DNA of 64,000 bases from NCBI GenBank assembly GCA_026414545.1, contig JAOAIU010000048.1:62001-126000 (forward strand), in the 5' to 3' direction. The notes below the pieces were generated by a model. The model ran no database searches. It was not told where the DNA came from and worked only from the letters and a program-made list of their open reading frames with translations. Shown here one piece after another: positions 7,602 through 24,964 of this stretch. Every line of letters starts with the position of its first letter. The first letter of the stretch is position 1. The translations under genes were made by a program, and so were the position numbers. This DNA is from Candidatus Saccharicenans sp. Its GTDB lineage: Bacteria > Acidobacteriota > Aminicenantia > Aminicenantales > Saccharicenantaceae.

Positions 7602-9644
7602 CTAATCCACCTTGATCATCTTTTCCACGGGCGATACCCGGTTGCTCCAGACCCTGACCGCCAGGCTGGAACCTTTGCTGGCCTGGACTGTCCATTCCAG
7701 TTTCTTGACCTCGCCACCCTGAAGGTGCGATACCAGTTCTACCGGCCGCCCGGCAAAAAGCTTCTGCTTGCCCTCCAGTCTTAAACTGACTCTGATGGGG
7801 TAGGAGGTCAGGGCCCGCCGACCCTGGGCCAAGGAAGTGGGCAGAAGCCCATCATTCTGCAGGTAGACGGTCAGCCGGTAAAGGTCAGACCCGAGTTTTT
7901 CAATTTTAGTTTCCCTTATGGAGACGACTGGCAATTTCATCATGAGTTTTCGGCTGTATTGAACATGGTACCTGAGGGCAGCCTGAAGCTGGTCAGCCGG
8001 CGGTGTGTATTTTATGAAAGGAACAAAACCCCCAATTTCCACCAGACCCAGCCCGGGATGCTTGAATTGCTTCCAGTTGACAAAACCAGCACCTTTTAAG
8101 ACGTTATCGGAATAGGCCAGGAGATAAGCTTCCGGATTTTCTTCGCCCGCTGTGGCTCCGGCCGGCCTGGGCATTTTTTCCATCATCTCGGCCATCCTGG
8201 CCGGCGTGACCTGGCCCGATTGCACCATCTTGATGAGCATGGTGGCATTAAAGTTGGGGGGAGCGCCCCTGTCCTTCAGAAAAGCCGCGATTTTCTCCTC
8301 CCCCAGGGACAGGAATTCTTCCGACGACATCGACCTGAGGCGGTCGGGAGTTAATTCGTCCTTTTTATCTTCCTTTTTTGGCTCAGCGACCTGCCACAGG
8401 TCAAAGGAAAACACCGGCACCCCGTACTGGTAATAGGCAAAAGCCGCCAAGGAGCCCTTGCCCACGCCCCTGGCTCTCTTTTCCAGGTAATCCAGGCCGA
8501 CTTCCTTCAGTCCGCTTTTGTATTCCTTCTGAAGCTCTTCGTATATGGCCTGGTCCGAGCGGTCCAGGTTCATGGCCGGGCCCAGCCCCAGGAAAGTGGC
8601 CACCAGGCTCTCGTCTACTTCCATGCCCCCGGCGAAGCCAGAGCTTTTCAGAACATCCACAATTTCCTTAAGCGTATATTCAGCCTCGGGGTCCAGCCCG
8701 AGGAAGCTGGCAAATTGCCGGGGAACTCGGACCCGGTCCGCACCAACTCTGGCCTGTCCGGTCTGCTGCATATTAAGCAGGTTATTCTCGGTAGAAAAAT
8801 TTATTACCATGGCTATGTTGTTATGGTCGAACATGAACTTCAACAGGGCTTCGGTTTCGGGTTCAGATACCGGATAAAGGCCGGATCGCTTCTGGAAATA
8901 CTCAAAGTCGTGGGGGAAATTTCTGTTCAGGTCCACTCCGCCGGGGCCATCCTCGTTTATCTGGCCATCGCCATCATTATCCAGGCCCTCCGTATATACC
9001 AAGTATTCTCCCTTCTCTCCTTTTTTCGGGTCGGCCAGCTTCATCAGCCTGGGCTCCCGGGGGTCAATCATCCAGCGGCCTTCTGGCGATTTGACTCTCA
9101 TGGTGGTAATGAGTCCGTCGCCGTCGAGGTCCTCCGGCCCATCCTCATCGACCAGTCCGTCGTTGTCTTCATCCACAGGGCGGCCGTTAAAAGTCCTTTC
9201 CTGTCTTGGTTTCGAGAAATAGGCTGCCGCCGCTTCTGGATTCAACAGCGGAATTATGTAAACGGTATTCCGGTTCAAGAAATCCGTCCAGGCCTTATCC
9301 TGGCCATAGTCGGTAAGAATGGATTCGGCCAGTTGCAGGGCGGCCTCGGTTCCCGGAAGGTGAATCCCTTCTGCGTTAGCCACCACCAGCACGGCCGGCC
9401 TATCTTCCGGCTCGGACTTATTCTTTCGCCCGGCAATTTCCAGGACAAGGATATCCTGACCGCCAAACGATTTACCGATGCCCTTCAGGCGGCTGATTTC
9501 AGGGAATTTGCCGGCCAGGCTTTTCAGGCTGGCGGCCACTTCGGCCGGTGAATGGTATTTTGTTTCTACCTGAGCCACCAGCAGGGGAGCGGCCAGCAGA
9601 AAGCAGAAGATAACCAGGAACAACGGGATCTTATATTTGGACAT
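7602..9644 (-). CDS. Secreted M14-family paralogue with a degenerate zinc site (probable pseudo-peptidase)
   Basis: I chose the ATG at 9644 because a GGAGG lies just before it and a clean signal peptide follows (MSKYKIPLFL...); the track's longer start adds 31 unlikely residues. The 680-residue product aligns along its N-terminal half with the next gene, sharing the Asp-rich loops and GVDLNRNF. At the zinc site HGNE is replaced by EGIH (92-95), and the third ligand His is replaced by Ser (INFSTENN, near 284). The Glu expected in the catalytic strand is not seen (FSFDLWQV). An insertion of about 80 charged residues sits in the middle. I infer a non-catalytic or altered-metal protein that may bind peptide or assist the active paralogue. 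Confidence 0.87.
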   Translation of the reverse strand: MSKYKIPLFLVIFCFLLAAPLLVAQVETKYHSPAEVAASLKSLAGKFPEISRLKGIGKSFGGQDILVLEIAGRKNKSEPEDRPAVLVVANAEGIHLPGTEAALQLAESILTDYGQDKAWTDFLNRNTVYIIPLLNPEAAAAYFSKPRQERTFNGRPVDEDNDGLVDEDGPEDLDGDGLITTMRVKSPEGRWMIDPREPRLMKLADPKKGEKGEYLVYTEGLDNDGDGQINEDGPGGVDLNRNFPHDFEYFQKRSGLYPVSEPETEALLKFMFDHNNIAMVINFSTENNLLNMQQTGQARVGADRVRVPRQFASFLGLDPEAEYTLKEIVDVLKSSGFAGGMEVDESLVATFLGLGPAMNLDRSDQAIYEELQKEYKSGLKEVGLDYLEKRARGVGKGSLAAFAYYQYGVPVFSFDLWQVAEPKKEDKKDELTPDRLRSMSSEEFLSLGEEKIAAFLKDRGAPPNFNATMLIKMVQSGQVTPARMAEMMEKMPRPAGATAGEENPEAYLLAYSDNVLKGAGFVNWKQFKHPGLGLVEIGGFVPFIKYTPPADQLQAALRYHVQYSRKLMMKLPVVSIRETKIEKLGSDLYRLTVYLQNDGLLPTSLAQGRRALTSYPIRVSLRLEGKQKLFAGRPVELVSHLQGGEVKKLEWTVQASKGSSLAVRVWSNRVSPVEKMIKVD

Positions 9645-9783
9645 AAATCCTCCTTCCAATTTCCAGCAAGAATAAATATACGGACAAGAACTCAGCATGG
9701 TTCTGACGTTATCGACCTTATGAAAACTCCGGGCCATCAGCAGATAACAAATAAATTATTTTTATCGTCTGAGGTTCTTATCT

Positions 9784-9789
9784 TATAAT
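9784..9789 (+). promoter_or_regulatory. Candidate -10 box for the Asp-box protein gene
   Basis: TATAAT sits 39 nt before the chosen ATG, in the AT-rich gap between divergent genes. The -35 position 17 nt upstream (TTTATC) is weak, so only the -10 element is supported. Confidence 0.45.
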
Positions 9790-9828
9790 GGACCTCGGTC
9801 AGAAGCAAATCAGAAATTGGAGGTCAAC

Positions 9829-12800
9829 ATGCCGAGCGCCCGGAGAGATTTAATTTTTCCATTCCGGCGGAAAAATATCCTCACCATTAAGGCAGTAATT
9901 TTCTGCCTGGCTTTCCTGATGTTCCGGTCACCCCTTCCGGCCCAGGCGCAGCAAACGGACCGGGTCAATGAATACCTGAATAAGTTTATCACCTGGAGGA
10001 ACATCGGCCCGGCAGTTCCTGGTGGCCGAACCGTGGACCTGGATGTGGTGGAAAAAAATCCCTCGATAATATACGCGGCCGTCGGACCCAGCGGGCTATG
10101 GAAATCGGAAAATAATGGACTTAGCTGGTTTCCGGTCTTTCAGCGCGAAGAAACAGTTTCGGTGGGAGCAGTGGCTGTGGCCCAGTCTTCGCCCGATGTT
10201 GTCTGGGTAGGAACCGGGGAAAGCACCAGCCGGAATTCAGTCACAGTTGGAAATGGAGTTTACAAGTCAACCGACGGGGGCAAGACCTGGAAGAACATGG
10301 GGCTCAATGATACCAGGCACATCAGCCGGATCATCATCAGTCGGGGAGACCCCAACGTCGTCTATGTGGCAGCCATGGGCCACCTCTGGGGGCCTAACTC
10401 CGAGCGTGGAATTTACAAGACCATAGACGGGGGCCAGAGCTGGCAAAAGATTCTCTATGTTAATGAAAATACAGGATTTAGCGACCTGGAAATGGACTCC
10501 GGAGATTCTCAAGTTCTCTACGCCGCTGCTTATGAACACCGCCGGCTTCCATACCGCATGGTCAGCGGCGGACCGGGCAGCGGTATTTTTAAATCCACTG
10601 ACGGTGGCTTGACCTGGTCCAGGCTGACCAGGGACTTGCCTGAAGGAATCATGGGCAGAATCGGGCTGGCCGTATCCAGGAGCAAGCCAGGAGTGGTCTA
10701 TGCCCTGATTGAACACCAGGACCCGGGAATCTGGCGCTCGGAAGATTATGGCCAGAGCTGGAAGAGGACCTGCGATGCCAAGACCTACAAAAATGTAAAT
10801 AACAGGCCATTTTATTACAGCCATATCTATGTCGACCCGTCTGATGACCGGACCATTTATGTCCAGTCCACCGGTCTTTACGTTTCTAATGACATGGGCC
10901 AGAAATTCCGGGCGATAGGGCAGGGGACCCATCCTGATCACCATGCCCTGTGGATCGACCCGGCCAACCCGTGGCATCTAATCGACGGAAATGACGGCGG
11001 CATAGATATTACCTATGACGGCGGCAAGACCTGGTTCCCGGTGACCAGCATCGACGCGGCCGAGGTCTATCAGGTGGGCTTTGATTATAGTCTGCCCTAC
11101 AGGGTCTACTGCGGGCTCCAGGATAATGGCTGCTGGGGTGGCCCCTCCAATTCTCTGGACAGCCGGGGAATCCTTAATGAGCACTGGGAATTCATAAATG
11201 GGGGAGACGGCTTTTTTGTCAGACCAGACCCTGAGAACAGCTTTATTGTCTATTGCAATTCTCAGAATAATGGACTTATCAGGAAAGATCTCAGGCACGG
11301 TCTGGGCAAGAGCCTCAGGCCTGAGGCTCCGCTGAATGAGCCCCCTTACCGGTTTAACTGGAATGCACCCATCATGATATCACCTCATGATAATAATACA
11401 GTCTATTGCGCCGGAAACTTCCTTTTCAGGTCAAAAGATGGGGGATATTCCTGGGAAAAGATCAGCCCGGACCTGACCAGCAACGACCCGGCCAAGCAGG
11501 TTGACGGAGTGGGCCCTATAACCATTGAAAACAGCGGGGCCGAGGTCCATTGCACCATTACAGCCATAGCTGAATCGCCCGTACAGGCCGGGGTATTGTG
11601 GTGTGGGACTGATGACGGCAACCTTCAAGTTTCACGGGATGGAGGCCAGAGCTGGACCAACGTTGCGAGGAATATCACGGGACTTCCCCGGAATTCCTGG
11701 TGTTCCAGGGTTGAGGCCTCTCATTTTGAAGCTGGAACAGCCTACGTAGCCTTTGATAACCACCGTAGCGATGATTATTCACCATATATTTACAAGACTA
11801 CTGACTTTGGAAAGACCTGGAAATCCCTGCGCTCCAACCTGCCCGCATTTGGCTGGGTGCATGTAATAAGAGAGCATCCTAAAAATAGGAATTTACTGTT
11901 TGTTGGAACAGAATTTGGAATTTATGCTTCTTATAACTTTGGGTTAAGTTGGCTTAAAATTCACGGCACAAATTTACCTACTGTAGCCGTCAATGACATT
12001 GCCATTCATCCCAGAGAAGATGACCTTATCATCGGAACTCATGGCCGGGGCATCTGGATCCTGGACGATATCTGTTACCTCAGCCAGTTCAACCCGGATA
12101 TCATAAATTCTGATTTTTACCTTTTTAGGCCCAGAGCCGCCTATCTTTTCTTAAATTCTAGCCGGGGAGACATTTATTCGACTTTCGGTTTCAGGGGAAA
12201 TAACCCGCCCGTCGGAGCTGGGCTTACTTATTTTGTCCGCAGCGACCTCAGCGGGGATTTTAAAATAGTTATTCGTTCGAACGATAACGAGCCGGTCATA
12301 GAAATCCCGCTTCAGAAGAAAGCCGGCCTTAATCGAACCAGCTGGAATCTCCAGTTTTTACCAAGAACCGGCAGCGGCGAAAAACCTCAGATGGTCGGTA
12401 TCATGAACGTCATGTGTAATGTTACTCCTGGGGAATACAGTGTTTACATAAAAATAGGGGACAAAGAACATCAAGCAAAGCTAACGGTTTTTCCCGACCC
12501 CAGATTTGAACTTAACCCGGCAGAAATTCAGAAGCAATATCAGCTTGTGGCCGAGCTGACCAAAATCAACAACTTTTATGCCAGGGCTATTGCTGTGGTA
12601 CGCAATATTTCCAGAGATCTGGAAAAGACCAGCACCGAGATTGCAAATATTAAAGACGAGTCAACCAGAAAGCAAGCAGAGAATCAGCACAGGAAATTCC
12701 TCGATTCCTTCAATACCATGTCTGATATTTTTCAGACAGAGGGGACCATGCTCGGCCTTTCCATTCCTTACCAGAAATTCCTCCGTGGTCCAATAAATAT

Positions 12801-13017
12801 TAAGCTCATTACCCTTATTCAAGGAATCGCTGGTTATCCAGCAGGCCCAACAGCAACCGAAATTAGACAGGCAGAAGAACTCATCTCCAGGATCCGCAAT
12901 TCAATCCAGAAGCTAAATGAATTCATCAACAAAGACCTGGACGAATTCAACCGCTTCCTCGAATCAAATAAATTAACGCCCATAAAGAAACCGGAACCAT
13001 TAACCATGGATAACTGA
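9829..13017 (+). CDS. Large secreted Asp-box (BNR/VPS10-like) beta-propeller protein
   Basis: The ATG at 9829 is preceded by TTGGAGG; the TTG used by the track is part of that SD. The 1062-residue product has an arginine/lysine-rich N-terminus and a signal peptide ending at AQA-QQ. At least ten Asp-box repeats follow, such as KSTDGGKTW, KTIDGGQSW, RSKDGGYSW and KTTDFGKTW, spread over roughly residues 140-710. They form one or two beta-propellers of the sortilin/VPS10 or photosystem-assembly YCF48 type. After HGRGIWILDD comes a beta-rich stretch and then a Lys/Glu-rich helical tail. Such proteins are often annotated as glycosyl hydrolases, but no catalytic residues can be assigned here; peptide or glycan binding outside the cell is more cautious. 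Base composition becomes visibly more AT-rich in its last third. Confidence 0.85.
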   Translation: MPSARRDLIFPFRRKNILTIKAVIFCLAFLMFRSPLPAQAQQTDRVNEYLNKFITWRNIGPAVPGGRTVDLDVVEKNPSIIYAAVGPSGLWKSENNGLSWFPVFQREETVSVGAVAVAQSSPDVVWVGTGESTSRNSVTVGNGVYKSTDGGKTWKNMGLNDTRHISRIIISRGDPNVVYVAAMGHLWGPNSERGIYKTIDGGQSWQKILYVNENTGFSDLEMDSGDSQVLYAAAYEHRRLPYRMVSGGPGSGIFKSTDGGLTWSRLTRDLPEGIMGRIGLAVSRSKPGVVYALIEHQDPGIWRSEDYGQSWKRTCDAKTYKNVNNRPFYYSHIYVDPSDDRTIYVQSTGLYVSNDMGQKFRAIGQGTHPDHHALWIDPANPWHLIDGNDGGIDITYDGGKTWFPVTSIDAAEVYQVGFDYSLPYRVYCGLQDNGCWGGPSNSLDSRGILNEHWEFINGGDGFFVRPDPENSFIVYCNSQNNGLIRKDLRHGLGKSLRPEAPLNEPPYRFNWNAPIMISPHDNNTVYCAGNFLFRSKDGGYSWEKISPDLTSNDPAKQVDGVGPITIENSGAEVHCTITAIAESPVQAGVLWCGTDDGNLQVSRDGGQSWTNVARNITGLPRNSWCSRVEASHFEAGTAYVAFDNHRSDDYSPYIYKTTDFGKTWKSLRSNLPAFGWVHVIREHPKNRNLLFVGTEFGIYASYNFGLSWLKIHGTNLPTVAVNDIAIHPREDDLIIGTHGRGIWILDDICYLSQFNPDIINSDFYLFRPRAAYLFLNSSRGDIYSTFGFRGNNPPVGAGLTYFVRSDLSGDFKIVIRSNDNEPVIEIPLQKKAGLNRTSWNLQFLPRTGSGEKPQMVGIMNVMCNVTPGEYSVYIKIGDKEHQAKLTVFPDPRFELNPAEIQKQYQLVAELTKINNFYARAIAVVRNISRDLEKTSTEIANIKDESTRKQAENQHRKFLDSFNTMSDIFQTEGTMLGLSIPYQKFLRGPINIKLITLIQGIAGYPAGPTATEIRQAEELISRIRNSIQKLNEFINKDLDEFNRFLESNKLTPIKKPEPLTMDN

Positions 13018-13064
13018 TAATTCAAATATTTTATATATTATTTATTATCAATTACTTATAGATA

Positions 13065-13080
13065 TGTCGGCCTGCCGACA
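13065..13080. repeat. Perfect inverted repeat TGTCGG-N4-CCGACA before parA
   Basis: TGTCGG, a CCTG loop and CCGACA form a perfect 6-bp hairpin 48 nt after the stop of the Asp-box gene. No T-run follows on the plus strand, so an intrinsic terminator is doubtful. It could be an operator, a dispersed repeat unit or a Rho-related hairpin. Confidence 0.5.
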
Positions 13081-13106
13081 GGTAATAAATTTTTAAAAAT
13101 AATCTC

Positions 13107-13135
13107 TTGTATTTACATCTTCTTTTTTGTATATT
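13107..13135 (+). promoter_or_regulatory. Sigma70-type promoter for parAB
   Basis: TTGTAT (13107-13112), a 17-nt spacer and TATATT (13130-13135) match the -35 and -10 consensus well. The predicted transcript starts near 13142, leaving the GGAGGA at 13155-13160 in a short leader before the TTG start of parA. Confidence 0.6.
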
Positions 13136-13165
13136 TTTATTAATGATATTTACCGGAGGATTATC

Positions 13166-13933
13166 TTGATCATCGCTGTAACTAATCAAAAAGGCGGAGT
13201 GGGTAAGACCACCACCTGTGTTAACGTCTCTGCTGCGCTGGCCTTAATGGGGCATCGTGTTCTTCTGGTAGACATGGACCCCCAGGCTCACAGCACAATA
13301 TCAATAGTAAATAATCCCCACGAAATTCCCAGGTCACTGTTTGATGTATTAATGGATAAGAATACCAAAATAAACGACATAATTGTAAAGTCGACCATTC
13401 CTGGGCTTGATGTGGCAATTAGCAGGATTTCCATGGCTAAGTTGGAACCTGCGCTGATAGGAGAATTCGATGGGCATTATCGTCTTAGGGATGCCCTGAA
13501 TACGGTTAAGGATCACTATGATTTTATATTCATCGATACGCCGCCAACACTTGGGCTGATAACCTTAAATGCCTTGGTAGCAGCCAGTCATATTCTTATT
13601 CCGATTCAATCTTCCTACCTGTGCCTTGAGGGTACCGATGACCTTCTGGAAACTATTGATAAAGTAAAAAAGATTGCTAATCCTGACCTTGAGATTCTCG
13701 GGGTAATAATCACTCTTCATGACCGCAGAACAAATATCTCTAAAGATGTCGTGGACAGAATTATTGAGGTTTTTGGCGACAAGGTCTTTAAGACCTATAT
13801 TTCAAAAAGTGTTAAGCTTGAGGAAAGTCCGGCCTACAAGGAAAGCATTTTTACTTTTGCCCCCGATTCTATCGGGGCCATTCAATATAAATCTGTCGCT
13901 GAGGAGTTGATTGAACGTGCAACAAAAAACTAA
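13166..13933 (+). CDS. parA: ParA/Soj chromosome-partitioning ATPase
   Basis: The track opens at a TTG inside the promoter. The better start is the TTG at 13166, 5 nt after GGAGGA, which gives 255 residues beginning LIIAVTNQKGG (Met in the protein). The deviant Walker A (QKGGVGKTTT), the DMDPQAHST switch segment and FIDTPPTLG are those of small chromosomal ParA proteins. It binds DNA as an ATP dimer and moves ParB-parS complexes; no parS-like site (TGTTTCACGTGAAACA) was found in the window. Its end overlaps the start of parB, so the two are coupled. The gene is distinctly more AT-rich than the housekeeping genes to the right. Confidence 0.94.
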   Translation: MIIAVTNQKGGVGKTTTCVNVSAALALMGHRVLLVDMDPQAHSTISIVNNPHEIPRSLFDVLMDKNTKINDIIVKSTIPGLDVAISRISMAKLEPALIGEFDGHYRLRDALNTVKDHYDFIFIDTPPTLGLITLNALVAASHILIPIQSSYLCLEGTDDLLETIDKVKKIANPDLEILGVIITLHDRRTNISKDVVDRIIEVFGDKVFKTYISKSVKLEESPAYKESIFTFAPDSIGAIQYKSVAEELIERATKN

Positions 13934-14819
13934 AAAATCCGGCCTTCCCGACAATTTAATTATGAGGCATGACCCTCACTTTGTTGAGTTGATTGCCTCC
14001 AAGACCTCAGCTCCCAGGATCAGAATGATCCCGCTCGACAGGATAGAGCCGAATCCCCGGCAACCGCGTAGCGAGCTGGGAGACATCCAGGAATTGATGG
14101 ACTCCATAAAAGCAAAGGGCGTTCTTGAACCCATAATCGTCAGGCCAAAGGGAGAAAAGTTTGAGATTATTGCCGGAGAACGACGATTTGTAGCTTCAAA
14201 AAATCTTGGCTTAAAAGAAATTCCCTGCATTGAGATGACAGTCGACGATCAGGAAGCTATGGAGATAAGCCTGATAGAAAATCTCCAGCGAAAAGACCTT
14301 GATATTTTTGAAGAGGCAGACGGCCTAAAAGCCCTGATGAATCTTTATGGGTATAGCCACCAGGAAGTGGCCGACAAGATTGGCAAAGCCCGTTCCACAA
14401 TTACTGAAATTATTTCCGTTAGCCGCATACCTTTCGACCTTCGAGATAAGCTTAAACGAGCCGGCGTAACCAGCCGGAGCACCATTATTGAAATCGCCAA
14501 GCTTGAAAACGAGTCCCTGATGAGTCAGGTAGTGGAACGAATTATCCAAAATAGACTGACCAGAACTGATACCCGCGATTTGACCAGGCTATTTAAAGAA
14601 AAAGAAAATCAAGATACGGAAAAACCCAAGTTTTTCGTTTTTAATTATGTTCCCAAGGAAAATAAGACCTTTAAGCTGCGGATAGAATTTAAAAAACAGG
14701 TAGTTACCAGGCAAGAATTAATCAATATCCTTGAAAATATCATCAAACAACTTAAAGAAGAAGCGGGACAAAAGACTGGCTCAGGACAGCTCAAGCTTGA
14801 TGATGGGCAGGAAAAGTAG
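13911..14819 (+). CDS. parB: ParB/Spo0J-family centromere-binding CTPase
   Basis: The start is either the TTG at 13911 (GAGGAG just upstream) or the GTG at 13917; both overlap the end of parA. The 302-residue product has the ParB N-terminal CTP-binding fold, with NPRQPR, GERRFVAS (the GERR signature) and ENLQRKDLD. A helix-turn-helix domain follows (YSHQEVADKIGKARSTITEI), then a linker and a short C-terminal dimerisation region. The usual N-terminal ParA-stimulating segment (LGKGLxALI-like) is absent or diverged; the protein begins instead with a Lys-rich stretch and DNLIMRHDPHFVELI. With parA it should handle origin segregation. No terminator is seen after it. Confidence 0.93.
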   Translation: MNVQQKTKKSGLPDNLIMRHDPHFVELIASKTSAPRIRMIPLDRIEPNPRQPRSELGDIQELMDSIKAKGVLEPIIVRPKGEKFEIIAGERRFVASKNLGLKEIPCIEMTVDDQEAMEISLIENLQRKDLDIFEEADGLKALMNLYGYSHQEVADKIGKARSTITEIISVSRIPFDLRDKLKRAGVTSRSTIIEIAKLENESLMSQVVERIIQNRLTRTDTRDLTRLFKEKENQDTEKPKFFVFNYVPKENKTFKLRIEFKKQVVTRQELINILENIIKQLKEEAGQKTGSGQLKLDDGQEK

Positions 14820-15797
14820 CCTGATAGCAAAAGATATCAAGAGACCTGATATTAGTTTACATAATATAACTTATGCGACACAATTTAGCTACCATTTTCA
14901 TTTATTTTATTATCTATCACTTAGCATATTGTTAATCCTGTTAATATATCTGTTACCCATATTTTGTTCAGGTGTGGAAATCTCCGGCTAGGACCCAAAC
15001 CGTTACCCTGATGCTTGCCCGCCAGATTTATTTATCTAGATAATCACAAGAATGTGCAGAAAAGATTTTTGATGTGACAGCCATATTAATTTCAGTTGGC
15101 TTTATGAGTACAAAAGATTGTTTGAAAAAACTATCTCCGGTTAATTGGCTTATTCTGGCCTTAGAAAATTTAAAGGAAAAGGCTCCAGAGCGCCTGTTCT
15201 CAATGATCTTTTATTTTTTATATGACTTGCCAAATCATTGCCACCTAGACATAAATCCCTGAGACCGCCCTTAATTTTGCTTAGAATTCCAGGATATTAT
15301 CTCCTGTATAGAGTTGCCCTTGGTGATTACAGCCCAAAGATATAATTAAACCATATAGACTTCTAACCAGGATTGAAGCTCTTATCCCGTATGCCAACTT
15401 CCCCGCTATCGCCAAATATAACGAAAAATATGATGGAATATATCCTTTTAGGTATTTTTTTAGCTTTATCTGGTACATGTTAAAGGGCATGATTTCCCGG
15501 CCACTCGATAAAAAATGTTTTATTGTAATATCAATTGGAATTCTGCTATCATCTTTATAATCAATAATTTAAGATTAATTCCATATTCATCTTATTTATT
15601 ATCAACAAGATAAAGAATCACGGGGTTCAGAAAACACCCTTGCTTGTTAAGACTGATTTGTTCGCTATTTTTGCCAGAAATTAAGAAAGACCGGACCTGA
15701 CCGCATTAAATTAGTTAGAGCTTATGGAAATTAGAAGAAGGTGCGGGAGGCATCAGCACCTTATAGCGCCACGCCTCTGTACTCAAAAAAATGACAG
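14820..15797. other. AT-rich gene-poor island after parB
   Basis: Nearly 1 kb without an intact, SD-preceded gene, and clearly richer in A and T than the genes to its right. It holds a perfect 12-bp palindrome (TTATCTAGATAA, 15032-15043), a short unconvincing ORF (15074-15262) and the frameshifted protein-like remnant listed separately. A lone DnaA-box-like TTATCAACA at 15599-15607 is not enough to call an origin. I read it as a decayed region between convergent genes. Confidence 0.55.
15280..15560 (+). pseudogene. Probable frameshifted 3' remnant of an unidentified gene
   Basis: No ORF in the track covers this, but two adjoining plus-strand frames read like real protein. The first gives LRIPGYYLLYRVALGDYSPKI and then a stop at 15343. 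From about 15339 the next frame gives IIKPYRLLTRIEALIPYANF, continues through AKYNEKYDGIYPFRYFF and SFIWYMLKGMISRPL, and stops at 15558-15560. The composition (Tyr, Ile, Phe, Pro and charged residues, no low complexity) is unlike random AT-rich DNA. There is no start codon or SD. I do not recognise the family. A single indel near 15340 would join the two pieces. It could equally be chance in AT-rich sequence. Confidence 0.35.
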
Positions 15798-15857
15798 AAA
15801 AAAGCCAGGATGCCACTGACCCGGGGCCTGTTTACAGGCCCTTGCTCATGGCATCCA
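15798..15857 (-). terminator. Intrinsic terminator overlapping the 3' end of rho
   Basis: On the minus strand GATGCCA, inside the last codons of rho, pairs with TGGCATC beyond the stop. Inside this lies a second perfect hairpin, GGGCCTG-TAAA-CAGGCCC, whose loop is the rho stop codon. The outer stem is followed by CTGG and then six T. This is a good bipartite Rho-independent terminator for the rho transcript. Confidence 0.65.
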
Positions 15858-17112
15858 GGAAGTCGCTGTTGGTCTTGGTCTTGGAGAGTTTTTCCAGCAA
15901 CAGCTCCATGGCCTCGACCTCGTTCAACTGGCTGAGGATTTTCCTGAGGATCCAGATCCTATTCAGGTCCTTATCGGGGATGAGCAATTCTTCCTTTCTG
16001 GTTCCCGACCGGCTGATATCTATGGCCGGGAAGATTCTCTTGTCGACCAGACGACGGTCAAGGTTGATTTCCATGTTGCCGGTTCCCTTGAATTCTTCAA
16101 AGATGACATCATCCATGCGGCTGCCGGTATCAATCAGAGCCGTGGCCACGATGGTCAGGCTGCCGCCTTCCTCAATCTTTCTGGCTGAGCCGAAAAACTT
16201 TTTGGGCTTGTTGAGGGCGTTAGCATCGATACCGCCTGACAGCACCTTGCCCGAGGGCGGCACAATGGCGTTATGAGCCCTGGCCAGCCTGGTGATAGAA
16301 TCGAGCAGGATTACCACATCCCGCTTCAATTCCACCAGTCTCTTGGCTTTTTCCAGGACGATGTTGGCCACCTGGACGTTGCGGGTCGGGGGCTCGTCGA
16401 AAGTTGAGGCTACCACCTCGCCGTTGACACTTCTCTTAAAATCGGTAACTTCTTCCGGTCTTTCAGCTACCAGCAGCACTATCAGGAATATCTCGGGATG
16501 GTTCTTTTCGATGGACTTGGCCACCGTTTTGAGCAGGGTGGTCTTTCCAGCCCGGGGCGGGGAGACGATCAGGCCCCTCTGCCCCTTCCCTATTGGGGTC
16601 AGCAACTCCATTACCCTGGCGTTCATATTCTTGGGGTTTCCGTCCTGCAGCTTTATCAGTTCGAAGGGATATACCGGAGTCAGCTGTTCGAACTGGACAT
16701 TCCGCCTGGCCTCCAGGACTACATCGGGATGGAGGAAATTTATGGCTTCTATCTTAATCAGGGCAAAATACTTTTCTCCGTTCTTTGGGGGTCTGACCAC
16801 ACCTGAAATAGTGTCCCCGGTCCTGAGCTGGAATTTTCGAATCTGAGAGGGAGAAACGTAGATATCGTCAGGACTGGGCAGGTAGCTGAACTCTGGAGCC
16901 CGCAGGAAGCCAAAGCCATCTTCCAGGCATTCCAGGACACCTTCAGAAAACAGCAGGCCCTGCTTCTTGGCCTGAGCCTCCAGTATCTTGAATATCAGAT
17001 GGTGCCGGCTGGAATTTTCAATATCCTCATCCTCCAGCCCCAGGGAATTGGCAATTTTTTTCAGACCGGATAGTTCCTTTTCTTCCAGGTCGATCAGACT
17101 GTATTCTTTCAT
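15832..17112 (-). CDS. rho: Transcription termination factor Rho
   Basis: The 426-residue protein has the usual length and order: an N-terminal helical Rho_N domain, a cold-shock-like RNA-binding domain ([27 protein letters not shown]) and a RecA-like hexameric ATPase. Walker A is [12 protein letters not shown], the Q-loop/R-loop region reads [16 protein letters not shown], and the arginine-finger region is complete. It ends transcription of untranslated RNA by translocating on C-rich transcripts. The gene stands alone on the minus strand, 95 nt downstream of lon, and its transcript appears to end at an intrinsic terminator that includes the stop codon. Nothing is missing. Confidence 0.98.
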
Positions 17113-17207: not shown

Positions 17208-19622
17208 TCAATTGGTCATCTGGGGTTCCTTGGTGGCTTCAGCCCCGGGGGTCGGCTGCTTTTCCTTGCCTTCGGGTTCAGTCGGGCCTGCCTTGGGAAC
17301 CAGTTCTTCGGTCAGGGCTATTTTCAGCACCTGGTCCATGTTTTCCACCAGGTGGACCTTCAGGTTTTGCTTCAGCTTTTTGGGCAGGTCCTTGAGGTCC
17401 GGGCGGTTGTCCACGGGCAGAATGACTTCGGTGATGCCCTCACGGAAGGCGGCCAGGAGCTTCTCCTTTATTCCTCCCACCGGCAAGACCTTGCCTCTCA
17501 GGGTAATTTCCCCGCTCATAGCCACTTTCTTGCTGACCGGGATACCAGTCAGCAAAGAGATGATGGCCGTGGCGATGGTAATACCGGCTGAGGGCCCTTC
17601 CTTGGGTGTGGCCCCTTCCGGCACATGAATATGGATATCAAAATTCTTTTCGAGTTCCTTGCCCATATTGAGTTCATAGAGCTTGTGCCTCACATAACTG
17701 TAAGCGGCCTGGGCTGACTCCTGCATGATTTCTCCCAGGTGGCCGGTCAGCATCAGGTTGCCCTTGCCATGAATCTTGGTAGCTTCAAAGGTCAGCAGCT
17801 CGCCGCCAAATTCAGTCCAGGCCATCCCCAGGGAAACGCCGATTTCATTCTGCTGGTCAATCTCCAGTCGGCGATACTTGGGAATACCCAGATAATTCTC
17901 CACAGCTTTGGCCGTCAGCTTTTCCCGGTATTCCTTGCCTTTGGTAACCACTTTCTTGACCATCTTGCGGCAGATGGAGGTAATTTCTCGCTCCAGGTTT
18001 CTGACCCCGGCTTCCCTGGTGTATTCCCTGATTATCTTCAGAATAGCCTGTTCGGTGAACTCCAGGTTCCGGGAAGTCAGGCCATGAGCCTTGAGTTGCT
18101 TGGGAATCAGGAATTGCCTGGCAATCTGAACTTTTTCGTCCTCGGTGTACCCGGGCAACCGGATGACCTCCATTCGGTCCAGCAGGGCTCGCGGTATGGG
18201 GTCGATGGAATTGGCGGTGACGATGAACATTACCTGGGACAGGTCAAAATCGGTATCGATATAATGGTCGAGGAATTCTTTATTCTGTTCCGGGTCCAGC
18301 ACTTCCATCAGGGCAGCGGCCGGGTCTCCGCGGTAGTCCATGCTCATCTTGTCGACTTCGTCCAGCAGGAAGACCGGATTCTTGGTGCCGGCCCGTTTTA
18401 TCATCTGGATAATCCGGCCGGGATAAGCTCCGATGTAGGTCCGGCGATGCCCCCTGATTTCAGCTTCATCCCTGACTCCGCCCAGCGATAACCGGACAAA
18501 TCTCCGGCCCGTGGCCCGGGCAATGGACTTGCCCAGGGAGGTCTTGCCGACCCCCGGAGGACCGATGAAGGCCAGAATGACCCCCTTGGGGTTCTTGACC
18601 AGCTGACGAATGGCCAGATATTCCAGAATTCTTTCCTTGACCTTTTCCAGCCCGTAATGGTCTTCGTTCAGTATCCTTTCGGCCTCTTTCAGATCCCTCT
18701 TTTCTCTTGATTTCTTGTTCCAGGGCAGAGAAATCAACCAGTCCAGGTAGTTGCGGCTGACCGTGGCTTCGGCTGACATCGGAGGCATGGTTTCTAGGCG
18801 TTCGATTTCTTTCATGGCCTTCTCGTGGGCGTCGGGGGGCATCTGGGCTTCAGTCACTTTTCTCTTCAGCTCTTCTATCTCGTTGGGCTGTTCTTCTTTC
18901 TTAAACTGACCGCCGGGAATAAAGGTCCGCTGGCCGCCTTCTTTCGGCCCTCCCCTTCTCCGGGATGGGCCCGTCCCTGGCTCCCGGCCGATGAAATTGA
19001 CCAGGGATTCCTGGAGGAGGAATTTCAGGCGGTTCAGCCGTTCCCTGGTGTTGAGGGTCTCCAGCAGGTTCTGTTTTTCCTCCAGCGGCAGGTACAGGTG
19101 AGAAGAGATGATGTCGGCTATTCGGTCGGTGCTGTTTTCCCTCAGGGCCGGTATGATCGAATCCAGGTTGGCGTTCTGGTTTATCTTCAGGTATTCCTCA
19201 AACAGAGCCAGGACCTTTTTTAGCAATTCCTGGGTTTCCGGCGAGCTGTCCTCGATTTCTTTGACCACCTTGGCCAGAATCTGGTAATAGGGGTAGGTAC
19301 TCAGGAACTCCACTATCCGGGCCCGGTTCAGTCCTTCCACGATGACCTTCATGTTCCGTTCATCGGTCCGGGCCGTCCTGATAATTCTGGCGGTTACCCC
19401 CATGGTATAAATATCGCGGGGCAAGGGATTATCGATGCCGGCATCCATCTGGGCGGCCAGGAAAATCAGCTTGTCCTTCTCATAAGCCTTCTCCAGGGCC
19501 TTGATCGATGAGGGCCGGCCGACGACAAATGGTACCAGGGTGGCTGGGAACACCACCAGGTCCCTCAACGGAATCAGGGGTATATTTTTTATCAGTTCAG
19601 AATTTTCCTGGGACTCGGTCAT
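17208..19622 (-). CDS. lon: ATP-dependent protease Lon (LonA type)
   Basis: A full-length LonA of 804 residues: an N-terminal substrate domain, an AAA+ module with GPPGVGKTSLGKS, then the protease domain with catalytic Ser678 (PKEGPSAGI) and Lys721 (GGIKEKL). The linker before the AAA+ domain carries an Arg/Gly-rich patch near 220-240, and the extreme C-terminus is a Pro/Glu/Lys-rich tail. Lon degrades misfolded and regulatory proteins in the cytoplasm. It starts 1 nt after the clpX stop and is the last gene of tig-clpP-clpX-lon, so the three ATP-dependent protease genes are co-expressed. No heat-shock operator was recognised in front of the operon. Confidence 0.98.
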   Translation of the reverse strand: MTESQENSELIKNIPLIPLRDLVVFPATLVPFVVGRPSSIKALEKAYEKDKLIFLAAQMDAGIDNPLPRDIYTMGVTARIIRTARTDERNMKVIVEGLNRARIVEFLSTYPYYQILAKVVKEIEDSSPETQELLKKVLALFEEYLKINQNANLDSIIPALRENSTDRIADIISSHLYLPLEEKQNLLETLNTRERLNRLKFLLQESLVNFIGREPGTGPSRRRGGPKEGGQRTFIPGGQFKKEEQPNEIEELKRKVTEAQMPPDAHEKAMKEIERLETMPPMSAEATVSRNYLDWLISLPWNKKSREKRDLKEAERILNEDHYGLEKVKERILEYLAIRQLVKNPKGVILAFIGPPGVGKTSLGKSIARATGRRFVRLSLGGVRDEAEIRGHRRTYIGAYPGRIIQMIKRAGTKNPVFLLDEVDKMSMDYRGDPAAALMEVLDPEQNKEFLDHYIDTDFDLSQVMFIVTANSIDPIPRALLDRMEVIRLPGYTEDEKVQIARQFLIPKQLKAHGLTSRNLEFTEQAILKIIREYTREAGVRNLEREITSICRKMVKKVVTKGKEYREKLTAKAVENYLGIPKYRRLEIDQQNEIGVSLGMAWTEFGGELLTFEATKIHGKGNLMLTGHLGEIMQESAQAAYSYVRHKLYELNMGKELEKNFDIHIHVPEGATPKEGPSAGITIATAIISLLTGIPVSKKVAMSGEITLRGKVLPVGGIKEKLLAAFREGITEVILPVDNRPDLKDLPKKLKQNLKVHLVENMDQVLKIALTEELVPKAGPTEPEGKEKQPTPGAEATKEPQMTN

Positions 19623-19623
19623 G

Positions 19624-20871
19624 TTACGCTCCCATTACCTGCTTAAATTTTTCATAGCTCAGCCTCTGTTCTTCTACCATCTCCCGGGTAATGACGATCC
19701 TGGTTTCCTTTTTTTGCGAGGGCAGGTAAAACATCAGGTCGAGCATCAGGTCCTCGATTATGGCCCTCAGTCCCCGGGCACCCAACTTCTTCTCTATCGA
19801 CTTCTCGGCTATGGCCTGAACTGCCTCAGCGGTAAATTCCAGTTCGACTCCCTCCATCTCGAACAGCTTCTGGTACTGCTTGATGATCGCATTCTTTGGC
19901 CTGGTCAGGATTTCGATCAGGTGACCCCGGTCCAGGTCATGGAAGACGGCCACCACCGGCATCCGGCCGACCAGCTCGGGAATCAGGCCATATTTTATCA
20001 GGTCCTCGGGCATCAGATGGCGATAAATGTCCTGGCTGTCCACCAGCCTCCTGATCTCAGACTTGAAACCGACCGTGGACTTGCCGAGCCGCTGGGCAAT
20101 TATTTTATCCAGGCCGTTGAAGGCCCCGCCGCAGATAAATAGTATATCAGAAGTGTCCACGGGAATGAACTCCTGGTAGGGGTGCTTGCGACCGCCCTGC
20201 GGGGGCACGTTAGCCACGGTCCCTTCTATGATCTTCAACAGCGCCTGCTGGACGCCTTCCCCCGAGACATCCCGGGTAATCGACGGGCTGTCGCTCTTGC
20301 GGCTGATTTTATCTATTTCATCTATGTAGATGATTCCCTTCTGGGTTTTCTCGATGTTACCCTTGGCCGCCTGGAACAATTTCAGGATTATATTCTCTAC
20401 GTCCTCGCCGACGTAGCCGGCTTCGGTCAGGGTGGTGGCATCAGCAATGGCGAAGGGAACCGAAAGCAACCTGGCCAGGGTCTGGGCCATCAAGGTCTTG
20501 CCGGTTCCGGTGGGACCGATGAACAGCAGGTTGCTCTTGGTGATTTCCACCTCGCTCTGGCCCCTGGGTTGGTTGATGCGTTTATAATGGTTATATACCG
20601 CTACTGAGATCTTTTTCTTGGCCTCTTCCTGGCCGATGATGTACTCGTCCAGAGCCTTCTTGATTTGAATTGGAGTGGGGAACGGTTCCTTTTTCTGTTT
20701 TATTTCCAGGTCCTGCTGGCGGTCAGAAATCAGGATGGAGTGGGCAATCTCCACGCAGTTATCGCAGATGTAGACCTTCTGCGGCCCGGCAATCAGCCGG
20801 CGGACCTGGGTCTGGGTCCGGTGACAGAAACTGCACTTGACCGTGCCCGCATTTTGTTCATTGGTTGTCAT
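19624..20871 (-). CDS. clpX: ATP-dependent Clp protease ATP-binding subunit ClpX
   Basis: A 415-residue ClpX with the N-terminal C4 zinc-binding domain (Cys13, Cys16, Cys36, Cys39), Walker [13 protein letters not shown], Walker [11 protein letters not shown] and the RLGKSTVGF loop, which corresponds to the IGF loop that docks on ClpP. It unfolds tagged proteins and feeds them to ClpP. It lies 40 nt after clpP and 1 nt before lon on the same strand. Length and motifs are normal. Confidence 0.98.
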
Positions 20872-20911
20872 GGTCTATGCCTTACCTGCTCCCGTGGGGA
20901 GCCTGAGCAGC

Positions 20912-21508
20912 TCAGGCGAGAGTTTCCTTACGGGAACTTATAATCTGGTCAATGAGCCCGTACTCCCTGGCTTGAACCGGAGTCATGATGAAATCTCGCT
21001 CCACCTCAGACTGGATCTTTTCCAGCGGCTGGCCGGTGTGCCTGGCCAGGATCTGGTTCAGGTTCTCGCGCAACCTCAGAATCTCTTTGGCCTGGATGGC
21101 CAGGTCGCTGGCCTGGCCCTGGAATTCACCAAACGGCTGGTGAAGGACCACCCGGGAATTGGGCAGGGCAAATCTCTTGCCGGCGCTCCCGGCCGCCAGG
21201 AGCACAGCTGCCATGCTGGCCGCCTGCCCCAGGCAGATGGTGGTCACTGGTGAGGTTATGAACTGCATGGTATCGTATATCGCCAGACCGGCAGTTATGC
21301 TGCCTCCCGGTGAATTTATATACAAGGAAATATCCTTATCACTGCCCTCGGCTTCCAGGTACAACAGCTGGGCGATCACCAGGTTGGCCACTTCATCAGT
21401 TATTTCCGTGCCCAGAAATATTATCCTGTCTTTGAGCAACCTGGAATATATGTCATAACCGCGCTCGGTGCGCCCCTCGGATTCAATGACAAAAGGAATT
21501 ATGGCCAT
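20912..21508 (-). CDS. clpP: ATP-dependent Clp protease proteolytic subunit ClpP
   Basis: A standard ClpP of 198 residues. The triad is Ser98 (GQAASMAA), His123 (LHQPFG) and Asp172 (ERDFIMT). The N-terminus has the IPFVIE...[11 protein letters not shown] processing and axial-loop region. It assembles as a double heptamer and cuts substrates unfolded by ClpX. It sits 10 nt after tig and 40 nt before clpX in the operon. Confidence 0.98.
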
Positions 21509-21518
21509 AGGGGAAGCT

Positions 21519-22796
21519 TTATTCTATTATAATCCTCCCGGCTAAAAAGTCAACCGTTTTTCGCAGGAGCAGGTTGAGCTTCCAGTCCTCATCGCGCCCC
21601 TCCCTGGCCAGGGCCGCCCTGAGCTGGTCCAGAGGAATGTTTCTTGACTCTGATACCCTCTTCAATTCCTGTTCGAACTCTTCGGGGGTAATTTCCAGTC
21701 CTTCCCGGGAAGCAATTTTCCGCAGCAGAAGGTGATTCTTAAGGTTAGCTTCGGCCTGCTTCCGGGCCTGTTCCAGCAAGCCGGGCCAGAGGTCGGAGGG
21801 AATTTTCTTCAGCTCTTCCTCCCGGAATTGACGCCCGATTATGGCCTGGGCTTCTTCCTTGACCATGCTCTCGGGAATAACCAGGTTGATTTCCGCGGCC
21901 AGTTTTTCCAGGTACTGATTTATAGCTTTATCCCTGGCCTCCTCTTCCCGGTGACTGACCAGGTCCTGGCGGATTTTCTCCTTCAGGGCCTCCAGGTTTT
22001 CCACCTGGTCGACCAGCCTGGCAAAATCATCATTGAGTTCGGGTAATTTTTTCTCTTTTATCTCCAGAACTTTCAGCCGGTACTCGATTTCCTTTCCGGC
22101 AAATTTCTTCTGACGGTAATCCGGCGGATAATTAACGGTGAAAGTTTTTTCATCTCCGGGTTTCAGTCCGGGCAGCACTTCATTGAGTTGGGGCTCGTTA
22201 TCGGGATGACCGGCCAGCACCACCACTTTTTCTACTGGCATAAACTTCCTCGAAGCCATGTCCTTGCCCTGGATTTCAATGACCACATAATCGCCAGCCT
22301 GAACTCCGCGCTCTGTGACGGGCAAATACTCGGCGGCGTTTTCCCTGAGCCTGTTAAGCACAGCATCAACCTCGGCTTCTGCCAGCTGGGCTTTTTCCTT
22401 TTCAACTTTTTTATCCAGGTAATCAGACGGCAGGTCGAATTCTGGCCAGACCTCAAAAGACACCTGGTACCTGACTCCCCCGTCCAGACTGAAATCAATC
22501 GACTTAACCGTGGGCACGTTGACCGGAACAACTTTCAGGCTTTCCAGCTCCTGCCTCAGGTTCTCGGGAATGAGGTTATCCAGAACCGCTTCTTTAATTT
22601 CGGCCTCAAACATCCTCTGCACCATGTCTTTGGGGGCAAAGCCCTTTCTGAAACCGGGCAACTTAACCCGCGACACGTAGTCCTTGAGCACCTTTTCGTA
22701 TTCTTTTTTAACTAACTCGGGCGAGATTTCCAGGTCCAGTTCCCGGACTGTAGGGCTGACCACTCTCAGTTTTTCCTGGTTGGCATTGTTTTCCAT
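21519..22796 (-). CDS. tig: Trigger factor, ribosome-associated chaperone
   Basis: 425 residues, normal for trigger factor. The ribosome-docking loop is [13 protein letters not shown] in the N-terminal domain. An FKBP-like peptidyl-prolyl isomerase domain follows (about 155-245, [12 protein letters not shown]), then the helical chaperone arms. It binds L23 at the tunnel exit and shields nascent chains. It is the first protein gene of tig-clpP-clpX-lon and lies about 75 nt downstream of tRNA-Leu on the same strand, so the tRNA may be cleaved from a shared transcript. Confidence 0.97.
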
Positions 22797-22870
22797 CGTC
22801 TTTCCTCGAAATAAGATTTCCCCCGCAATCAGGCCGGATGGGGTGGATTCAGGCTGCTGAATGCTGGGAA

Positions 22871-22955
22871 TGGGCAGAGCGGGAATCGAACCCGCACTCC
22901 TTGTTCAGGAACTAGGTCCTAAGCCTAGTGCGTCTGCCAATTCCGCCACCTGCCC
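22871..22955 (-). tRNA. tRNA-Leu (anticodon TAG)
   Basis: On the minus strand the acceptor 5' arm GGGCAGG pairs with TCTGCCC (one G-U), with discriminator A. The D arm GGCGGAATTGG is typical of leucine tRNA. The anticodon stem-loop CTAGG-CTTAGGA-CCTAG gives TAG. A long class II variable arm (TCCTGAACAAGGA) and the T arm GCGGGTTCGATTCCCGC follow. CCA is not encoded. Confidence 0.96.
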
Positions 22956-23054
22956 AGCTTAATTATCTTATTCTTATTATGGAGATCTGATTGCCTGTGC
23001 GGATTTTAAGATTATTAAATACCATACTTCAGCCTGTCAGTCAATCCGGCCGCA

Positions 23055-24881
23055 CTATTTAATCAGCTTGGCCAGACGGCCGGCCAGGTTCTGGTCCAGT
23101 TTCTGCAGGGTCTTCAGCACTTCCCGGGCACTGTAGTTATCCTTGAGATTTATGTAGGTTATACCCAGGTTATACTGAGCCACGGCATTGTTGGGATTAA
23201 GGGAAACGCTTTTCTCCAGGTTGGGCAGGGCTTTTTCAAAATCCTTCAGGAGCATGTATTCCAGCCCAATATTCAACCAGCCGCTGGGGTCATCCGGAGC
23301 CAGGGCGGTATACTTTTTAAAAGCTTCCACTGCTTCTGGATGTTTTTTCATCTTGTCGTACACGATTCCCAGGTTGAACCAGGCATGAGTATAGTCACCC
23401 TTGACGGCCAGGCATTCATTTAAGGTGCTGGCTGCTTCTTCCAGCTGGCCCAGCCGGTCATACATGATTGCCAGATTGTACAGAGCCACTTCATTTTTCG
23501 GATTTATTTCCACTATTTTCCGGGCCGCTTCGACCGCCTTATCGTATTTCTGGGCCCGGTCATACATCTGCATGATTTGCCCGTAGTAGGTAATGGCATC
23601 ACGCTGGTTCATGGCGGCCAGTTTCTTGAAGACCGCTTCTGCTTCATCCAGCTGATTGGTTTCGGCCAGCAGCTTGGCCAGGTTATAATTAGAGTTAAGG
23701 TCGTCGGGGTTAATCTTCAGAGCTTCCCGGAAAGCGGCAATGGCTCTGTCGGGCTGATTCAGCCGCTGGTAGGTCTGGGCCAGTTTCAACCAGGCCGGAA
23801 AGGGATTGGCCGGCCCACTCCTGGCATACTTTTCATAATTTTCTGCGGCCCGGGCCAGGTCCTGCAATTCCTCGTAGGCTGTGCCCAGCTCAAAATATAC
23901 TTCCTTCAACTCCACCCGATTGCCTATGGCCCTTTCCAGGAACTCGGCCGCTTCTTTAAACTTTCTCTCCTTAATCTGGGTCAAGCCCATCCCATAAAGA
24001 GCCCGGGGATGGTTCGGGTTTAAGAGTATAGCTTTAGCAAAATTCTTATAGCTTTCGGCTGTATTGCCAAGTTTCAAATAAGCCTGGCCAAGAAGCACAT
24101 AGCCCTCCAGGTCATCCGGCTTAAACTTAAGGTATTTCTCCAGATAGACGCTGGTCAGGCCCGGCTCGTTCAGCAGGGCAGCGGCCATGCCCACCAGGAA
24201 ACTGCCCTCGGCCTGTTCCAGATAATTTTCCTTGGTGGCTGATTTCAGTTCCTGCCCCTTGGCCTGGGAGTTCATAGCCAGGACCGCTTCCACCGGAACA
24301 CCAAATTTGACTCCCGAACCGAAGACCAGGGCCACACCCACCACCTTACCCTGAACATCAAAAATCGGTGCTCCGCAGCCGGGTTTTTCCAGGTTCATGG
24401 TCATTTCCATAACCCTGATTTTGCCTGGCGAGAGGTCCAGCCAGCTCCTCATGTTCCCTTCGGTTATGATTACCTGTCCCGAGATTTCACTCAGGGCAAA
24501 AAGACGGTCCCCGGCCTGAAGACCGGTGGACACTCCGGCCGACAGCCCGCTGACTTTGCCTTTTATCCTGATCAGAGCCAGATCGTAATCGCGGGAGGTA
24601 GCTACCAGTGATTCCACCTTGCCGCTCTTGCCCGAGATGCTGGTCACTTCGGCTTCTGCGGCCTGGGAAATGAGATGGTAGGGCACCACCACCAGATTAT
24701 CGGCCAGGGCAAAACCCGTGCCCTCCCCCACCACGTTCTTGCTATTATCCCAGGCCTTTAAGGTTACCACCCCGGCCGAAGCTTTGCCAAGTATATCAAC
24801 GGCTTCCTGCGTCTGAACGGCCATCAGACCCTGACAGAGGACGAAAAAACCAACTATCAGAAAAAGATAGTCCTTTTTCAT
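23055..24881 (-). CDS. Secreted trypsin-fold protease with Cys nucleophile, fused to TPR repeats
   Basis: The ATG at 24881 follows GGAGGC and gives 608 residues with a signal peptide. Residues 30-215 form a trypsin-like/DegP-like domain: GEGTGFAL, His69 (VVPYHLIS) and Asp100 (DYDLALIRI). The nucleophile position, normally GNSGG, reads PGCGAP with Cys169. The His-Asp-Cys order is intact, so it may be a cysteine-type chymotrypsin-fold protease or an inactive binding domain. From about residue 240 to the end there are roughly ten TPR repeats (e.g. AVALYNLAIMYDRLGQLEEA-like units), which suggest protein-protein scaffolding in the periplasm. It stands alone between tRNA-Leu and a divergent membrane-protein operon. 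Confidence 0.88.
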   Translation of the reverse strand: MKKDYLFLIVGFFVLCQGLMAVQTQEAVDILGKASAGVVTLKAWDNSKNVVGEGTGFALADNLVVVPYHLISQAAEAEVTSISGKSGKVESLVATSRDYDLALIRIKGKVSGLSAGVSTGLQAGDRLFALSEISGQVIITEGNMRSWLDLSPGKIRVMEMTMNLEKPGCGAPIFDVQGKVVGVALVFGSGVKFGVPVEAVLAMNSQAKGQELKSATKENYLEQAEGSFLVGMAAALLNEPGLTSVYLEKYLKFKPDDLEGYVLLGQAYLKLGNTAESYKNFAKAILLNPNHPRALYGMGLTQIKERKFKEAAEFLERAIGNRVELKEVYFELGTAYEELQDLARAAENYEKYARSGPANPFPAWLKLAQTYQRLNQPDRAIAAFREALKINPDDLNSNYNLAKLLAETNQLDEAEAVFKKLAAMNQRDAITYYGQIMQMYDRAQKYDKAVEAARKIVEINPKNEVALYNLAIMYDRLGQLEEAASTLNECLAVKGDYTHAWFNLGIVYDKMKKHPEAVEAFKKYTALAPDDPSGWLNIGLEYMLLKDFEKALPNLEKSVSLNPNNAVAQYNLGITYINLKDNYSAREVLKTLQKLDQNLAGRLAKLIK

Positions 24882-24964
24882 CGTGCCTCCTTCCATTCCA
24901 TCAGAGAAAAATTTATATTATCTTTAATCATTGTGTCAAACAATTTATTAAAGCTGTGGACCTG

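Follow-up and report, generated by a model that had tools for sequence, protein, structure and literature searches.

Does a bacterial trypsin-fold domain that carries cysteine where the catalytic serine is expected still cut peptides, or has it been kept for another purpose? The question is raised by a gene in the window (the whole stretch of 64,000 nucleotides of Candidatus Saccharicenans DNA that was analysed), whose product joins such a domain to a TPR array (Table 1). The sequence-only reading had offered two answers, an active cysteine protease comparable to the viral 3C-like enzymes or a binding domain. Its numbering of the putative catalytic residues and its reading of the motif around the cysteine were borne out by alignment: the three residues lie in the contexts PYH69, DYD100LAL and PGC169GAP. 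Pro167, two residues ahead of Cys169, falls at chymotrypsin position 193, the place of the oxyanion-hole glycine. The full open reading frame runs from 23055 to 24896 with its first sensible Met codon at 24881, and the predicted signal sequence, which has no lipobox, is matched by the same kind of N terminus in the orthologues.

Table 1 Features of the S1C-TPR locus and its downstream block, in positions of the window.
Feature	Positions	Strand	Basis or remark
S1C-TPR protein gene (probable pseudoprotease)	23055..24881	(-)	608 aa; positions include the stop codon; supported by orthologues
Predicted N-terminal signal sequence, residues 1-21	24819..24881	(-)	read from sequence
Trypsin-fold (S1C-type) domain, residues ~24-215	24237..24812	(-)	Pfam PF13365, AlphaFold2, Foldseek
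His69 (chymotrypsin His57 position)	24675..24677	(-)	alignment
Asp100 (chymotrypsin Asp102 position)	24582..24584	(-)	alignment
PGCGAP, residues 167-172, where G-N/S-S-G-G/S-P is expected	24366..24383	(-)	alignment
Cys169 (nucleophile, Ser195 position)	24375..24377	(-)	codon TGC; alignment
TPR solenoid, residues ~224-607	23061..24212	(-)	Pfam TPR matches, full-length model, Foldseek
Promoter-like site TTGACA-18-TAAATT, upstream of the S1C-TPR gene	24910..24939	(-)	consensus match only
tRNA-Leu(TAG), between the S1C-TPR gene and tig	22870..22956	(-)	position conserved in the order
Downstream block, tig to lon	17208..22796	(-)	
tig	21519-22796	(-)	named from recognisable sequence, no family search
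clpP	20912-21508	(-)	named from recognisable sequence, no family search
clpX	19624-20871	(-)	named from recognisable sequence, no family search
lon	17208-19622	(-)	named from recognisable sequence, no family search

The fusion of a trypsin domain to TPRs was confirmed by profile searches and by structure prediction. Residues 54-183 match Trypsin_2 (E=1.1e-9, 39.6 bits against a cut-off of 27.6), while TPR families match the C-terminal part with E values down to 2e-53; tandem 34-residue helix pairs are present there, and the 23 predicted helices correspond to about 11 TPRs and a capping helix. Given the window protein aligned with 16 relatives, AlphaFold2 predicts a chymotrypsin fold with confidence (pLDDT 93.3 over residues 24-250, 92.3 over the full length). 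The domain is colinear in sequence with solved HtrA/Deg proteases and with RsgI9 of Clostridium thermocellum, whose S1C domain (PDB 7sjy) is its best match by sequence (1.2e-17) and also heads the Foldseek list (E=6e-17, rmsd 2.2), followed by HtrA1, Deg5, DegP and HtrA2 (probability 1.00 for the first three of these). Its Trypsin_2 profile and chymotrypsin fold thus assign it to the S1C/HtrA type. The TPR part resembles the superhelix of O-GlcNAc transferase and designed TPRs, and a scan of a defence library gave weak matches only, to the trypsin or TPR parts. As for the viral 3C-like cysteine proteases (PA clan, C3/C4), the comparison held for the trypsin fold and for the cysteine at the nucleophile position, but the relatives by sequence and fold are S1C/HtrA domains, and the viral fold matches are weaker (the best at 9e-12, against 1e-14 for HtrA1, with different libraries behind the two values).

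We then compared the active-site columns in aligned N-terminal domains from 17 members of the genus, 68 others of the order, 3 from other parts of the class and 20 further S1C-TPR homologues. The cysteine is not a lone exception among serine-bearing homologues, since it is the prevailing state of the genus (14/17, with Ser in 3/17). Because these 14 members share it as TGC or TGT, a single base away from the Ser codons AGC and AGT, a lone mutation or a sequencing error can be discarded. Within the genus the triads are H-D-C (14), H-D-S (2) and N-N-S (1, L016), that is, an H-D-[C/S] set in 16 of 17. The remaining 68 members of the order have S27, N16, R13, T4, D3, A2, C2 and Q1 at site 195, which brings cysteine to 16 of the 85 orthologues, and they display 24 distinct triad combinations; His has been lost from 18 (still present in 50), Asp from 30 (still present in 38), and H-D-S/C is found in 13, just one of which has Gly193. 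This glycine is absent from 80/85 orthologues, namely from all 17 Saccharicenans members (Pro in 14, then Thr, Val and Ala) and from 63 of the 68 others, and it occurs together with H-D-[S/C] in a single orthologue out of 85. In the order members outside Saccharicenans, two thirds of the domain is better conserved than the nucleophile column, and few columns vary as much as position 193. The His and Asp columns stand at the 68th conservation percentile of the domain, a little above average, and that of Cys169 at the median.

A tree computed without the active-site columns (a quick search with SH-aLRT support) recovers Saccharicenans as a supported clade (SH-aLRT 100). The minimum number of changes on this tree is 22 for site 195, 12 for His, 14 for Asp and 32 for position 193. 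Cysteine has further origins at site 195 in L118 and in L129, where the His is Gln; Cys and Ser interchange inside one small clade (L015-L018), and sister lineages have Arg, Asn or Gln at the nucleophile site. Family-wide conservation is 98-100% at Tyr68, which directly precedes the His, and at Gly170, which directly follows the nucleophile; their retention while the nucleophile drifts suggests that the site now needs the fold and the tyrosine rather than the nucleophile. Tyr68 is 98% conserved family-wide although the adjoining His is not always kept; it is not typical of intact S1C-TPR homologues. Nor is this a dying pseudogene, given the full-length frames and a dN/dS well below 1: in comparisons of the window gene with six near relatives it is 0.07-0.14 in the trypsin domain and 0.05-0.08 in the TPRs (Nei-Gojobori with Jukes-Cantor, rough values as dS is often near or above 1), which indicates a maintained protein under strong purifying selection in both domains.

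Taken together, the window protein is very probably a periplasmic S1C pseudoprotease-TPR adaptor of the MamO/RsgI9 kind, in which a non-cutting trypsin domain is joined to an 11-TPR solenoid. Like other S1C pseudoproteases it has an HtrA-derived domain that is retained under selection with a degenerate L1 loop and nucleophile, and it possesses neither the His-Asp-Ser triad of an active S1C serine protease, as Cys169 replaces the serine, nor the oxyanion Gly193, replaced by Pro167. Proline has no backbone NH to donate for oxyanion stabilisation. In their work on MamO, Hershey et al. (PMC4794232) describe glycine 193 as highly conserved and critical for catalysis, the open, active shape of the loop being strongly disfavoured for other residues. 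Residues 166-168, directly ahead of Cys169, were modelled as a helical turn in both AlphaFold2 models, which may perhaps represent a collapsed oxyanion loop. With a critical glycine missing throughout the genus and a proline devoid of the NH in its place here, catalysis is unlikely; judged from its residues, the trypsin domain would not carry out proteolysis. The protein is probably located in the periplasm. By analogy it would serve in binding or as an adaptor, and the binding-domain option of the sequence-only reading fits the conservation pattern of the 85 orthologues.

Two described proteins show how such a domain can be retained. The RsgI9 S1C domain is secreted and, like the window protein, has a Tyr before His57; its triad is H-D-T with Glu193, a threonine rather than a cysteine thus standing at the nucleophile position, and it comes from another phylum, its fusion partners being NTF2 and an anti-sigma factor instead of TPRs. 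It has been described as protease-like and capable of binding cellulose (PMC12203970). MamO of Magnetospirillum magneticum (PMC4794232) is an HtrA-derived pseudoprotease with Thr at the nucleophile position and a non-glycine residue at 193, kept for non-catalytic work as we propose for the family studied here. It differs in binding metal via a surface di-histidine of the protease domain and in having a TauE domain and no TPR array; the comparison is one of kind only.

Among the alternatives, it is improbable that Cys169 has been kept in the genus for non-proteolytic chemistry, as a thiol redox partner, a ligand for a metal or cofactor, or a site of covalent attachment. Cys169 is the sole cysteine of the mature trypsin domain in the window protein and is widely kept, as such a role would predict, but serine takes its place in the three remaining genus members and no CXXC or metal motif adjoins it. 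Moreover, Cys490 of the TPR array is conserved in 15/17 genus members, so the conservation of Cys169 is not exceptional. Some members that retain Cys169 have no Cys490, which argues against a fixed disulfide pair, and a Cys169-Cys490 bridge was accordingly rejected as a family feature.

It is highly improbable that in Saccharicenans the domain works as a cysteine protease of the chymotrypsin fold, with Cys169, His69 and Asp100 forming a bacterial counterpart of the 3C-like enzymes in a reducing, anaerobic niche. The small chance we leave to it reflects the retention of His and Asp with Cys or Ser in all but one genus member, and both the purifying selection on the gene and the confidently predicted trypsin fold would suit an enzyme. 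Against this, Gly193 has been replaced in the entire genus, mostly by a residue that offers no NH donor, whereas 3C-type enzymes retain the oxyanion glycine; one genus member has N-N-S; Cys and Ser swap within one small clade; sister lineages have Arg, Asn or Gln; and the conservation of His and Asp lies only slightly above that of an average column. The orthologous group does not display the conserved Cys, His and oxyanion glycine of a 3C-like enzyme. With C, S, N, R, T, D, A or Q at site 195 and His and Asp repeatedly lost, the combination of a missing Gly193 and decaying columns led us to reject an active cysteine protease as the main reading. Most improbable of all is a Saccharicenans-restricted cellular cysteine protease of the chymotrypsin fold that would have emerged from a decaying serine protease and would work without the oxyanion glycine.

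The pseudoprotease reading also agrees with the relatives outside the orthologous group. Among the 20 S1C-TPR homologues examined (17 belonging to other classes of Acidobacteriota, 2 to the class of the window protein and one, L096, to Saccharicenans), which were chosen by profile score and are not a random sample, H-D-S is present in 20/20 and Gly193 in 19/20, and no variation is seen in the three catalytic columns. Intact Acidobacteriota S1C-TPR serine proteases (e.g. L053-L060, L162-L168) share the architecture of a trypsin domain followed by TPRs and are homologous to the window protein over most of a 269-position N-terminal profile, but differ from it in having H-D-S, GSSGS/GP and Gly193, and the four loci whose surroundings were checked (L091-L094) lie outside the tig-clpPX-lon block. 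The ancestors of the family would thus have been S1C-TPR serine proteases, of which intact His-Asp-Ser forms still exist in the phylum. In the Aminicenantales lineage the oxyanion glycine was presumably lost first and Ser195, His57 and Asp102 then drifted, with cysteine becoming the usual residue 195 in Saccharicenans as one of several replacements. The trypsin domain would most likely persist as a non-catalytic module that binds a ligand or peptide, and the TPR array would hold partner proteins. Other genes appear to cover general periplasmic proteolysis, since the window's genome encodes separate intact HtrA-type proteases, L174 (with PDZ domains) and L175. The same genome has two S1C-like proteins, L176 and L177 (contigs C10 and C24), which have no catalytic His and keep GMSGGP/GNSGAP; they are possibly further pseudoproteases. 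In a Saccharicenans genome, L096 (G017:C14:8000-22000) and L172 represent a second, intact S1C-TPR protein (H-D-S, GSSGSP) that occurs beside the decayed one.

S1C pseudoproteases are already known as a kind, but we found no description of the Aminicenantales pseudoprotease-TPR family in the literature searched, and it appears to be undescribed there. An order-wide, syntenic family of this sort replaces the tempting but weak claim of a bacterial 3C-like cysteine protease. Because the phylum still has S1C-TPR relatives with an intact site, one of them within the genus, the set offers a natural series for studying protease domains that are kept after the loss of catalysis.

Full-length orthologues (E<=1e-40) were found in 84/94 genomes of the order and in 45/45 of those of good quality, usually within a conserved block, alaS-[S1C-TPR]-tRNA-Leu-tig-(clpPX)-lon, in which the placement of the tRNA gene was examined in 18 block-bearing loci. 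Most of the order members that were tested, and the 16 named relatives within the limits of their contigs, have pilT-alaS-transglycosylase upstream of the S1C-TPR gene, which is oriented divergently from a DUF2085-like and a diacylglycerol-kinase-like neighbour. This constancy suggests vertical inheritance. A link to protein quality control is no more than hinted at, given the cytoplasmic location of trigger factor (tig), ClpXP and Lon and the tRNA gene in between; the notion that an operon shared with tig-clpPX-lon proves a role in proteostasis is likewise weakened by the tRNA-Leu gene and by the presence of alaS and pilT in the block. One genome from the class but not from the order, G097 (L090), has the same block, and its triad reads H-D-A; a decayed form may hence have stood at this locus before the order arose. 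Some order members have a block without clpPX; in L077-L080, for instance, no clpP or clpX was detected between tig and lon and the block is otherwise kept. G019 has two pseudoprotease-TPR copies, L086 and L087, both decayed (H-N-S and N-N-N); the tig-lon block contains just one of the two. Elsewhere in the window, positions 8001-16000 have a G+C content of 0.47 versus 0.53-0.56 in the remainder, possibly marking a foreign or unusual region.
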